Source of the DNA: an uncultured Chthonomonas sp.
GTDB taxonomy: Bacteria > Armatimonadota > Chthonomonadetes > Chthonomonadales > Chthonomonadaceae
Reading direction: 5' to 3'
Length of the DNA stretch: 35,111 bases
NCBI GenBank assembly: GCA_903821495.1
Contig: CAIJLM010000177.1
Coordinates: forward strand, 1-35,111
Translations under genes and position numbers: made by a program
Notes under the pieces: model-generated
Databases searched by the model: none
What the model saw: the letters and a program-made list of their open reading frames with translations, nothing else
What the model was told of the DNA's origin: nothing
Part shown: positions 25,467-31,273 of the stretch, one piece after another
Layout: each line of letters begins with the position of its first letter
Numbering within the stretch: the first letter of the stretch is position 1

Positions 25467-26939
25467 TTAAACTCCCCGCATAAACTTCGCCGCCTCTTTG
25501 TCGTAGGTATGAAACGGGTTTTTCAGTTCGAGTTGGCGGTTGCGCTCAATGTAGACGGCATCCCAATCTATGAGGTAGCGCGCCCCCGTCGCCTCTAGCA
25601 GTTTGGATACGATGTAGCCTCGCCCTTTGGCGCGCGTGTTGTCGGGCGGGTTGTAGATGGCGTGTTCCACCTCTTCATCCGTCACCATGCGCCGCATTTC
25701 ACCCGCCGCCTCTAGCCCGTAAAATAGACCGGAAGAGGGGCTGATGTTGTGGTACTCAAGGTCTACGCTCTGCATAATATCGTCCTGCCACGAGACCCCA
25801 TTCTCCTCAATGAACCGACTGTAGAGGCGATGCTTGGCAGACCAGTCCAGCCTGTCCCATGTCGAAAGCGGGTCGCGCTCTAGGTCGTCCAGAATCCTCT
25901 CCCACTCCTGCAAAATCAGGTCGGTCTGCGCGTCCTTCTGGTGCATATAGCGCTTTGCGCTGTCCAGATAGCGGCGTTGGAGTTCAATCGCGGTAATCAC
26001 TGTTCCATTACGCATAGGAACCAACCACCGAAAAGTAGGGTCGCGAGAGACGTTCCGCAGGGTTTCCAGCGGGTCAGCCACCTCTATATCGGGCGGGACA
26101 ACCCCCTCTTCGATAAGGTGTAGCACGAGGCTTGTCGTACCCAGTTTGAGCCAGCAGGCGTACTCGCTCATGTTGCTCTCGCCAAAGAGAATGTGGAGGC
26201 GATGCAGGTTGCTATAGGAGTAGTAGGAGTCCCATTTGGGGTTGATGATAGCGCGGTTGAAGCGCACTCGCGAGGAGATGGTTTTGACGATGTGGTCGGC
26301 GCGTTGCGAGAGTTGGAAGTCCACTGTGGGGTCTATCTCCACGCCGTAGAAGTTGGAGACCCACACATAGTCCACCTCATGCTCGCTCACGGTCATAATG
26401 TTCGATTTGCTATTCGGGCGCGTGAGTTTGTGTCCCCCCACACGCCCTAGCCCTGCGAATATCTGACGGGTGACGAGGAAAGGGAGCAGATGAGCGAGGG
26501 CTTCATTGAAGAATCTATCCTCTATCTGCACAAGGTAGTTTTCGTGACAACCGAAGGTGTGTCCGCCGAAGTGGTCGATACTGTTGTTGTGAAAACTGAC
26601 CATCTCCTCCAGATTCAACTCTTTGAGAAGTTGTGCGAGGAGCATACGCCCAGCGCGGTCGTGCCGCACGATGTCCAGCAGGTCGGTGCATTCAGCGGTA
26701 GCGTACTCCTCATGGCTGCCTACCGCGTCGATGTAGAGCCGCCCGCCGTTCTTCAAAAATCCGCCCGCTCTGGCAGGCTCGAAGGCGTAGTCGCGGGCGT
26801 GCAGGTCTATCACGCCCAGTTTCTTTTCGTAGAACGCATAGTCCTTAACGTGTTCGACGACCTCCTCGGCGGTTCCTAGCGTCGAATCGCGCACCATGCA
26901 CCCAAACTCGGTCTCAATGCCAAAAATACGTTTCTCCAT
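25467..26939 (-). CDS. Pup ligase/depupylase family enzyme, closest to PafA
   Basis: This 490-residue carboxylate-amine ligase belongs to the PafA/Dop family, which attaches or removes the ubiquitin-like protein Pup. Typical blocks are MEKRIFGIETEFG (metal-binding E9), NGGRLYIDAVGSHEEYATAE with the catalytic D71, HTFGCHENYLV, LPFLVTRQI, LSQRADHI, LHILFGESNMSE, and a PafA-like C terminus YLIDWDAVYIE with KNPF. GSH-EYATAEC favours PafA over Dop, which has a HAHPEY form. It carries an insertion of about 40 residues before the FLKNGG strand and another before LSQRADHI, compared with actinobacterial PafA. GGGAAA upstream sets the start at 26939. No pup, proteasome or ATPase gene is in the window. 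Confidence 0.85.
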   Translation of the reverse strand: MEKRIFGIETEFGCMVRDSTLGTAEEVVEHVKDYAFYEKKLGVIDLHARDYAFEPARAGGFLKNGGRLYIDAVGSHEEYATAECTDLLDIVRHDRAGRMLLAQLLKELNLEEMVSFHNNSIDHFGGHTFGCHENYLVQIEDRFFNEALAHLLPFLVTRQIFAGLGRVGGHKLTRPNSKSNIMTVSEHEVDYVWVSNFYGVEIDPTVDFQLSQRADHIVKTISSRVRFNRAIINPKWDSYYSYSNLHRLHILFGESNMSEYACWLKLGTTSLVLHLIEEGVVPPDIEVADPLETLRNVSRDPTFRWLVPMRNGTVITAIELQRRYLDSAKRYMHQKDAQTDLILQEWERILDDLERDPLSTWDRLDWSAKHRLYSRFIEENGVSWQDDIMQSVDLEYHNISPSSGLFYGLEAAGEMRRMVTDEEVEHAIYNPPDNTRAKGRGYIVSKLLEATGARYLIDWDAVYIERNRQLELKNPFHTYDKEAAKFMRGV

Positions 26940-27106
26940 GATAATTTCCCTACTCGCTAATATCAAAATAGGCTTCCCCGTTATCCTACTTGCCTCCTAC
27001 GCCCCAACTCATACAGTAATTGTACTGGAATTCGGGGAATTTTGACTTATACCCTAAGAATCTATCCTTGCCTATCCAATTGCCAGTAGGCATAAGGCGG
27101 ATAACG

Positions 27107-28896: not shown

Positions 28897-29121
28897 AGTA
28901 TATCATAAACGCCGCCTACATTTCGCCTCGCCCTCAAAATAATAACTCCGGTTGCAGAGTTGTCTTTTTACGTTCCACGCCCCTTTTCGCCGATTTTGAG
29001 GAGAGTAGTAGGTATGGACATCCGCTTACAAAGGCGGAACCCAAAAAAGTCTGCGAATCTAGCGCTTTGCACAGTGACCTCTTCGCTGTAATTTGGCATA
29101 ACTACTATGTAGGTTCTTTCC
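28897..29121 (+). other. Intergenic region upstream of the riboswitches
   Basis: No gene is seen. It should contain the minus-strand promoter of the lipoprotein gene and the plus-strand promoter of the riboswitch transcript. A weak plus-strand candidate is TTGCAC, 16 bases, then TAATTT near 29068-29095. A small hairpin AACTC/GAGTT followed by TCTTTTT lies near 28945-28970. Confidence 0.35.
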
Positions 29122-29213
29122 CGCCCCCGATAAAGGGCAAACCAACCGCAAGGTTGGGACGCAAAGCGCACGGGTCTCGGCTTATTCTCTGAGATGGCCG
29201 CGCCGCCGAAAGG
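29122..29213 (+). ncRNA. Cyclic-di-GMP-I (GEMM-I) riboswitch, upstream copy
   Basis: The aptamer core matches the GEMM-I consensus. GGGCAAACC leads into a perfect stem CCAACC-GCAA-GGTTGG capped by a GNRA tetraloop, then GGGACGCAAAGC, then the second arm with CGGGTCT and GGCCGCGCCGAAA. A closing stem CGCCC (29122-29126) / GGGCG (29209-29213) fits P1. It is the first of two copies on the transcript of the subtilase gene. The 3' half of the second arm is less canonical than in the downstream copy. Confidence 0.88.
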
Positions 29214-29351
29214 GCGACAAAAGCGAAGAAACTTCTCTCTCTTTGGGAGATTTCTCCGGCTACTTCCTCGTCGGGCAGGTAAGGACAGATTAAATAACGT
29301 AGCCTTCTTGTTTCTAATGAGTAGGCTCGTTTCGTCACCATTCACATCCTT

Positions 29352-29446
29352 CGCAAGCGAAATGGCAAACCGCGCCGAAAGGACGGGACGCAAAGCCACG
29401 GGTCTAATGCGGTCATCGCAAAGACAGCCGGGCTACCGAAATTGCG
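29352..29446 (+). ncRNA. Cyclic-di-GMP-I (GEMM-I) riboswitch, downstream copy
   Basis: This is a canonical GEMM-I aptamer. GGCAAACC is followed by a GAAA-capped arm, GGGACGCAAAGCCACGGGTC, a variable hairpin, and AGCCGGGCTACCGAA. The ends CGCAA (29352-29356) and TTGCG (29442-29446) can pair as P1. Its 3' end is only 24 bases from the subtilase start, and GAGGGAG follows directly, so ligand binding could change access to the ribosome site. It begins about 140 bases after the first copy ends. Confidence 0.94.
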
Positions 29447-29470
29447 CTACAACGAGGGAGTCTTCAAATC

Positions 29471-31273
29471 ATGTTTCCACTAAGCGCCCGCAGGCGCAAT
29501 AACACGCCCGCAGACGACAAGCGCCCGATAGCGCCCCGCCGCTATGGGATTTTCCAGCGGGCTATGCAAGCCGTTACGCTTGCCTTCGTTTTGGGGGCGG
29601 CTCTACACGCTCTCCCCGTTGAAGCCAGCGAACTGTCTGGCAAAGCAGATAGTCTCCTAACAAAGAGAGCCTCTCAGAGGCTGAAAGTTGGCTCTACTGG
29701 GGTCATTGTCAGAATTAGCGTAGCTCTGACGGCGCAACGCGAAGCCGAACTGCGGAGCCTCGGTTGTCAGATATACCGCCGACTTCCGATAATCAAATCT
29801 GTCGCTCTGACTGCGCCAAACCGTAGCCTAAACCGCTTGGCGGCGCTACCCTACGTACAGCGACTCTCCGCAGACCTGATAGTAAGAAAGACCGATGCAT
29901 TCACCGATACGCACAGCATGGCTTCCAACGCATGGGCGTTGTATCCTAAGCTCGACCCGACACACGTACTCGTTGGCGTTGTAGATAGCGGAATCAACAA
30001 AGTCAATGACGTGCAGAACGTTGTAAAGTCGCTCTCCTTTATCGCGAACAACGCGAACTTGGGAGATGAGTGCGGGCATGGAACCCACGTCGCGGGCATT
30101 ATCAGCGGTTCGGGAGCCTCCTCTACAGGAACGGGCTTCACGCCCATTCGAGGAGTAGGGTACAACGCCTCTAGCCTCAAAGCCCCTCTTCTTGCCAGCC
30201 TCAAGGCGTTGGGAGCCGATGGAACGGGCAGAGTCAGCGATGTAGTCGCCGCAATGCAGTGGCTCCTTCTGGTTGCGAAACACGATAAGTCTGCCGGAGT
30301 GACGCTACCACCCGATGTGCGGGTCGTGTTGAACCTCTCTATTGGTCATCCCGTCGCGGAAAGCTACACAACAGACCCTCTCTGTCAAGCGTGCGAAGCG
30401 CTATGGCAAGCGGGCGCGGTTGTGGTCTGCTCGGCGGGTAACGATGGTCGCCTTCAAGATACGGTAGACCCGACTCTCGACAATGAAGGGTACGGAACCT
30501 CCTACGGAACTATCAACTCTCCCGGCAACGACCCCTACGTAATTACCGTAGGCGCAGTGAAGAATATGGACGGAAATCGGGCGGACGATAGGCTTTCGAC
30601 CTACTCTAGCCGAGGTCCTACGCGCCTTGACTTGGTATTGAAGCCGGATATCATTGCGCCCGGCAATAAAGTAGTCTCCGTAGACGCTGGCATTAACAGC
30701 GCGTCGAAGCTCTATAGTTGGCTACGAGGAGCCTATCCGGGCAACCTTGTTCCGCAGAGCGAATACTATAGCGGGACGAAAACGCTAACGCCCGCATACT
30801 ACAAGTTGTCCGGAACCTCTATGGCGGCTCCTGTTGTCTCGGCGGCGGTAGCGATGATGTTGGCGCAAAACATGACGCTAACGCCAGACACTATCAAGGC
30901 GCGACTGATGCTGACCGCCGATAAGTGGAACCTGCCGAATGGCTCCGCCGCCCCCTGCTCTTTGGGCGCGGGGTACGTGAATGTCCTTGCGGCGATGAGT
31001 AGCTCCGTTGTCGCTACGCAGAGCGCTCTCTCTCCCAATATGGTGCAAGACGCGCAGGGCAGTGTCTATATCTCCATAGACAGAGCGATATGGGGAACAG
31101 GCGTAACCGACCTGCGTGCGATATGGGGAACCAAAGCGATTTGGGGAACCACCACAAACCTTCTCTCCGCTAGCAAGGCTATCTGGGGAACGGGTGTTTG
31201 GAGCGATAGAGCCGTGTGGGGAGTCGACATCTTCGGCGCAGACTTTTCAAAGGCGGTCATTGGCGGAGAGTAG
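29471..31273 (+). CDS. Secreted subtilisin-like protease (S8) with IWG-repeat tail
   Basis: This 600-residue serine protease has a long basic N-region with one hydrophobic segment (about 34-50). An inhibitor I9-like propeptide (about 75-140) is followed by the subtilase domain. The triad is D172 (GVVDSGIN), H203 (GHGTHVAGIISG) and S450 (SGTSMAAP), with oxyanion N324 (AGNDG). The domain ends near residue 520. The tail (about 535-600) holds five short repeats of the form (D/K)(R/K)AIWGT: RAIWGTG, RAIWGTK, KAIWGTT, KAIWGTG and RAVWGVD. The function of the tail is unknown; it could bind cell surface or self-associate. Expression is preceded by two cyclic-di-GMP riboswitches. GAGGGAG lies 10 bases upstream of the ATG. 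Confidence 0.93.
   Translation: MFPLSARRRNNTPADDKRPIAPRRYGIFQRAMQAVTLAFVLGAALHALPVEASELSGKADSLLTKRASQRLKVGSTGVIVRISVALTAQREAELRSLGCQIYRRLPIIKSVALTAPNRSLNRLAALPYVQRLSADLIVRKTDAFTDTHSMASNAWALYPKLDPTHVLVGVVDSGINKVNDVQNVVKSLSFIANNANLGDECGHGTHVAGIISGSGASSTGTGFTPIRGVGYNASSLKAPLLASLKALGADGTGRVSDVVAAMQWLLLVAKHDKSAGVTLPPDVRVVLNLSIGHPVAESYTTDPLCQACEALWQAGAVVVCSAGNDGRLQDTVDPTLDNEGYGTSYGTINSPGNDPYVITVGAVKNMDGNRADDRLSTYSSRGPTRLDLVLKPDIIAPGNKVVSVDAGINSASKLYSWLRGAYPGNLVPQSEYYSGTKTLTPAYYKLSGTSMAAPVVSAAVAMMLAQNMTLTPDTIKARLMLTADKWNLPNGSAAPCSLGAGYVNVLAAMSSSVVATQSALSPNMVQDAQGSVYISIDRAIWGTGVTDLRAIWGTKAIWGTTTNLLSASKAIWGTGVWSDRAVWGVDIFGADFSKAVIGGE

Follow-up and report, generated by a model that had tools for sequence, protein, structure and literature searches.

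Among tandem riboswitches built from aptamers of one class, those of the c-di-GMP-I class are the most numerous, with 347 doublets and 12 triplets (review, PMC9481103). The triple c-di-GMP-I riboswitch Bc3-5 of Bacillus thuringiensis has been tested and proved more stringent than fewer copies (PMC4759541). Recurrent tandem c-di-GMP-I riboswitches before a single gene family were described for the COG1305 transglutaminase-like enzymes of Bacillota (PMC12452182), and in Clostridioides difficile a c-di-GMP-I riboswitch controls the secreted protease PPEP-1 (ZmpI; PMC11477304). The locus analyzed here resembles all of these systems: as in Bc3-5 and other known tandems, at least two aptamers of this class lie in series, in the window probably on one leader; as in the COG1305 case, the arrangement recurs before one gene family; and as with PPEP-1, the target is a protease that is predicted to be secreted. 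The locus lies in a window of 35,111 nucleotides, which is the whole stretch of DNA analyzed and an entire contig of a 5.4-Mb assembly; relatives of this genome are named Armatimonadota, and MAGs of the same family are named Chthonomonadaceae. Taken as a whole, we consider it probable that the locus is a tandem c-di-GMP-I leader with one promoter that controls translation of a secreted S8 protease.

Aptamer pair and protease gene

A cmscan search of the entire 35-kb window against all Rfam families returned two matches above the cut-off, both to the c-di-GMP-I family RF01051 and both on the forward strand (Table 1). The sequence-only reading had placed two GEMM-I aptamers in series on one leader; the Rfam search bears out both aptamers with 58.9 and 75.9 bits against a gathering score of 35 bits. 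The motifs named there (GGCAAACC, a GNRA-type tetraloop, GGGACGCAAAGC and CGGGTCT) are all found in both aptamers, the tetraloop being GCAA in aptamer 1 and GAAA in aptamer 2. The coordinates proposed for the aptamers also hold, whereas the distance of 24 bases from aptamer 2 to the start codon has to be corrected to 30 bases (model end at 29440, ATG at 29471). The aptamers are 143 nt apart.

Table 1. Features of the tandem leader and the genes behind it (window coordinates).
Feature	Coordinates	Strand	Basis or remarks
Promoter-like pair GTGACC (29074-29079), 17 nt, CATAAC (29097-29102)	29074-29102	+	Candidate promoter just 5' of aptamer 1
P1 5' strand, aptamer 1 (CGCCC)	29122-29126	+	Pairs with 29212-29216; covariation across loci
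c-di-GMP-I aptamer 1	29126-29210	+	RF01051, 58.9 bits, E 3.1e-9, model 1-87, full length
P1 3' strand, aptamer 1 (GGGCG)	29212-29216	+	Pairs with 29122-29126; covariation across loci
Stem-loop behind aptamer 1	29224-29258	+	Related leaders have a stem-loop of other sequence here
RBS-complementary segment CTTCCTCG (RNA CUUCCUCG)	29263-29270	+	Best complement of the leader, pairs with CGAGGGAG; putative function
Second RBS-complementary segment TCCTTCG (with CGAGGGA)	29347-29353	+	Overlaps P1 of aptamer 2; putative function
P1 5' strand, aptamer 2 (CGCAA)	29352-29356	+	Pairs with 29442-29446; covariation across loci
c-di-GMP-I aptamer 2	29354-29440	+	RF01051, 75.9 bits, E 2.3e-13, model 1-87, full length
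P1 3' strand, aptamer 2 (TTGCG)	29442-29446	+	Pairs with 29352-29356; covariation across loci
Ribosome-binding site (RBS) CGAGGGAG	29453-29460	+	Sequence; conserved in L064
S8 subtilase, 600 aa	29471-31273	+	PF00082, 129.5 bits, E 2e-37; hydrophobic N-terminus, WG-repeat tail from about residue 541
Small ORF, 77 aa	31394-31627	+	Hydrophobic N-terminus, end HRVIWGN; counterpart in the same place at both other same-genus loci

Both aptamers retain the junction core, with GGC, GACGCAAAG and the pocket G equivalent to G20 of Vc2 (alignments, with Vc2 numbering counted manually). The cAMP-GMP (GEMM-Ib) riboswitches share the fold of the window aptamers and are distinguished by an A at the Vc2 G20 position (PMC9481103, PMC9262584), where both window aptamers carry G. 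The retained pocket G points to c-di-GMP rather than cAMP-GMP, and cAMP-GMP specificity of the window aptamers was rejected on this ground; from family membership, we infer that c-di-GMP is the ligand of both.

The two aptamers differ in tetraloop and P3 receptor: GCAA is combined with a helical receptor side in aptamer 1, and GAAA with UCUAA in aptamer 2. The P1 helices vary in sequence between loci but retain their pairing, P1 being CGCCC:GGGCG in aptamer 1 and, in aptamer 2, CGCAA:UUGCG or UCGCA:UGCGA in most loci. A comparison of cognate with exchanged strands supports covariation of P1 (p 0.0015, in a set that includes related loci). In the window, P1 of aptamer 1 is predicted to be more stable than that of aptamer 2 (-10.8 versus -5.5 kcal/mol), which by the argument of PMC9262584 could give the two aptamers different sensitivities.

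The catalytic triad of the S8 subtilase (D172, H203 and S450) is invariant among relatives, and conservation of the start codon and of the ribosome-binding site in the closest relative, L064, supports the start at 29471. The earlier proposal that the aptamer pair precedes a secreted protease with a WG tail is upheld by a predicted secreted S8 subtilase (PF00082) with a WG-rich C-terminus, and by the same pairing at 11 other loci. For the WG tail, AlphaFold2 returned low confidence and no confident structure. In each of the three same-genus loci (the window, L099:4938-5213 and L100:4847-5047), the protease is directly followed by a small ORF, which probably belongs to the protease operon. Its products have a hydrophobic N-terminus, an unalignable middle and a C-terminus reading HRVIWGN, PHRVIWGN or YHVLWGV, with a WG motif that matches that of the protease tail; possibly, the small protein is a substrate, a partner or a sorting motif.

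Recurrence of the tandem leader in relatives

Homologues of the protease were taken from whole genomes and GTDB contigs and scanned for c-di-GMP-I aptamers. Tandem aptamers directly 5' of WG-tail subtilases were found at 12 loci in eight genomes, 11 loci and seven genomes being additional to the window (L064/L099, L067/L105, L074/L121, L083, L094, L095/L145, L102, L104, L110, L111 and L142); four of the 12 belong to one MAG and two to another. A single c-di-GMP-I aptamer precedes WG-tail subtilases at six loci (L065/L100, L073/L117, L077/L156, L107, L112 and L113, the last two near a contig end). Many Armatimonadota paralogues in the scan lack a c-di-GMP-I aptamer, and none was detected before those Acidobacteriota homologues that were examined. 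One clade of the gene tree, of 19 rows and fully supported, includes the window; its proteases comprise 8 tandem, 4 single and 7 unassociated ones. That the tandem leader arose only once was rejected, as at least three changes of the tandem label are needed on well-supported branches.

The order of the two aptamer subtypes is conserved. In all eight loci that share the window's architecture, out of the 12 tandem loci, the loop of aptamer 1 is GCAA or GUGA and is combined with a helical receptor side, and that of aptamer 2 is of the GAAA type (AAAA in L111). Since these are two distinct subtypes conserved across loci, a recent duplication of one aptamer was ruled out. In a tree of the short aptamer sequences, firsts and seconds are not all grouped separately.

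In the tandem leaders at L067:2372-2462 (identical to L105) and L110:2876-2968, aptamer 2 has an A at the Vc2 G20 position (AAAAGCAAACC) and aptamer 1 a G, so that these leaders possibly receive a mixed c-di-GMP and cAMP-GMP input. A conserved ORF of about 62 aa (MWTLYDP...LWFLLEPTSPLTSR) lies between the aptamers in L094:2414-2754 and in the equivalent region of L095 (genomes G227 and G226). Three serial c-di-GMP-I-like cores occur at L091:2919-3182 (reverse strand), the middle one degenerate and the first with A at the G20 position. At L096:2586-2825 (reverse strand), a gap of 16 nt separates two c-di-GMP-I aptamers, of which the first has an enlarged P3, and an apparent terminator comes after the pair; the nearest of the long ORFs looks, by eye, like a PfkB-type sugar kinase.

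Leader anatomy and candidate modes of control

The aptamers share one strand, and in the window sequence a promoter-like motif was seen before aptamer 1 only. A strict consensus scan did not pick up this pair; similar elements (GTnAnn-17/18-CATAAT/TATAAT) precede aptamer 1 in several related tandem leaders. A transcript starting at this candidate promoter would form one leader RNA running through both aptamers into the protease gene, and probably on into the gene for the small secreted protein.

The leader contains two complements of the ribosome-binding site, the first located 3' of aptamer 1 and the second immediately 5' of aptamer 2, and both recur in relatives. The element right behind the post-aptamer-1 stem-loop is the best complement of the whole leader in the window, L064, L104 and L111, is tied for best in L102 and ranks second in L142. 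Shuffled spacers equalled the best complement at frequencies of 0.017 for the window, 0.017 for the next locus, 0.133 for L102, 0.023 for L104, 0.037 for L111 and 0.143 for L142, values that are not independent because the loci are related.

Leaders were folded with crude equilibrium models of secondary structure only. In free folding, UCCUUCG (or its counterpart), which lies directly 5' of aptamer 2, base-pairs with the ribosome-binding site in seven of the eight loci (six of the seven related leaders), with a pair probability of 0.78 in the window. Forcing aptamer 2 into its bound helices in whole-leader folds made the ribosome-binding site cheaper to open in five of six loci; in the window, the cost fell from 6.0 to 3.8 kcal/mol. 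Folds of aptamer 2 alone showed opening on binding in L110, L102 and L111, and an unchanged cost in the window (4.98 versus 4.90) and L064. The helix enclosing aptamer 2 in the window is not significant by itself, shuffled leaders closing the site equally well in 46% of cases. Forcing both aptamers led the spacer element to cover the ribosome-binding site again in most loci (pairing 0.95 in the window). By these models, aptamer 2 would open the ribosome-binding site, and aptamer 1 would tend to pass it to the spacer element.

In the explanation that we favor, binding of c-di-GMP by each aptamer would fix its own P1 helix. In the absence of ligand, the UCCUUCG strand just 5' of aptamer 2 could cover the ribosome-binding site; formation of P1 in aptamer 2 would take up part of this strand and favor opening, while aptamer 1 would act on the same output via the spacer behind it. 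On the folding models, expression switched on by c-di-GMP appears somewhat likelier than expression switched off. An OFF switch, in which c-di-GMP keeps the ribosome-binding site covered, would agree with the pairing to the spacer element when both aptamers are forced and has a precedent in PPEP-1, which is made at low c-di-GMP (PMC11477304); we find it doubtful nevertheless, given the opening by aptamer 2 in the whole-leader folds and the overlap of its P1 with the strand that covers the site.

An intrinsic terminator was rejected as the expression platform of the window, as no T-run terminator was found on the forward strand between 29126 and 29471. Together with the short distance from aptamer 2 to the start codon, this indicates that control is probably exerted at translation initiation. 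Transcriptional control by Rho-dependent termination or a weak spacer terminator could make use of the stem-loop that lies behind aptamer 1 in both the window and its relatives. Strong intrinsic terminators are present in the leaders of both G208 loci, thus the mode of control is not uniform among tandem leaders. For the window, however, we judge transcriptional control unlikely, since the T-run terminator is missing and the ribosome-binding site directly adjoins aptamer 2.

That aptamer 2 alone regulates the protease, aptamer 1 being a weakened remnant or a regulator of something else on the leader, is improbable: aptamer 1 has the lower score, single-aptamer leaders occur among relatives, and in G226 and G227 the small ORF between the aptamers means that aptamer 1 may there serve another gene, but aptamer 1 retains its core, pocket G, loop and receptor type and covarying P1 in all eight loci, and the short ORF in the window's spacer is not conserved.

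Under the favored explanation, with both aptamers acting on translation of the protease, a steeper response or two-step control, as had been suggested from the sequence, is plausible by analogy with described tandems (PMC9481103, PMC4759541). The differences in tetraloop and receptor type and in predicted P1 stability agree with different sensitivities no less well than with a steeper response. The two aptamers might even act with opposite signs on one ribosome-binding site, aptamer 2 freeing it and bound aptamer 1 releasing the spacer element CUUCCUCG to cover it again; with differing affinities, the protease would then be produced only at intermediate levels of c-di-GMP, a band-pass behavior that we regard as very improbable. 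With its two subtypes in fixed order, the leader offers a good natural test of whether tandem riboswitches steepen, broaden or band-limit a response.

Genomic context and comparison with known systems

The genome carries three c-di-GMP-I aptamers, namely the tandem pair and a single one before flgM (PF04316, E 9e-17). The flgM-associated aptamer is conserved in the genus, being found in this genome and in the other three (L098:6375-6462 on contig C399 of G000, L097, L093 and L092), and the anti-sigma-28 factor may be under c-di-GMP control. This second riboswitch makes a small regulon of motility control and an exported protease testable. Eleven GGDEF domains score over the cut-off in the genome, so c-di-GMP is presumably made. 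Through the tandem leader, c-di-GMP, which signals the change between a motile and a sessile lifestyle, would be linked to an exported protease in a phylum that has received little study. The window also encodes, at 25467-26966 on the reverse strand, a Pup-ligase/Dop family protein (PF03136), a component of the Pup-proteasome system, in Armatimonadota.

The arrangement differs from each of its closest counterparts. Bc3-5 has a terminator for each aptamer and lies upstream of cspABCDE, whereas in the window no terminator was seen and aptamer 2 lies right next to the ribosome-binding site; here the target is an S8 protease and the host belongs to Armatimonadota. PPEP-1 is a metalloprotease unrelated to S8 subtilases and is listed with one c-di-GMP-I riboswitch. 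The COG1305 case concerns another phylum and another gene family, and the main text of that survey mentions neither Armatimonadota nor peptidases (PMC12452182). In the literature searched, which covered few subscription journals, no c-di-GMP riboswitch was linked to subtilases in such manner or to Armatimonadota. The use of these aptamers had been called unusual by the sequence-only reading, and this applies to the S8 target with a WG tail, but neither to the tandem architecture, with 347 doublets on record (PMC9481103), nor to a secreted protease as target, given PPEP-1 (PMC11477304). Tandem c-di-GMP-I aptamers and a protease under such a riboswitch are known, and what seems new is the target gene, a WG-tail S8 subtilase, and the recurrence of the tandem leader before it.
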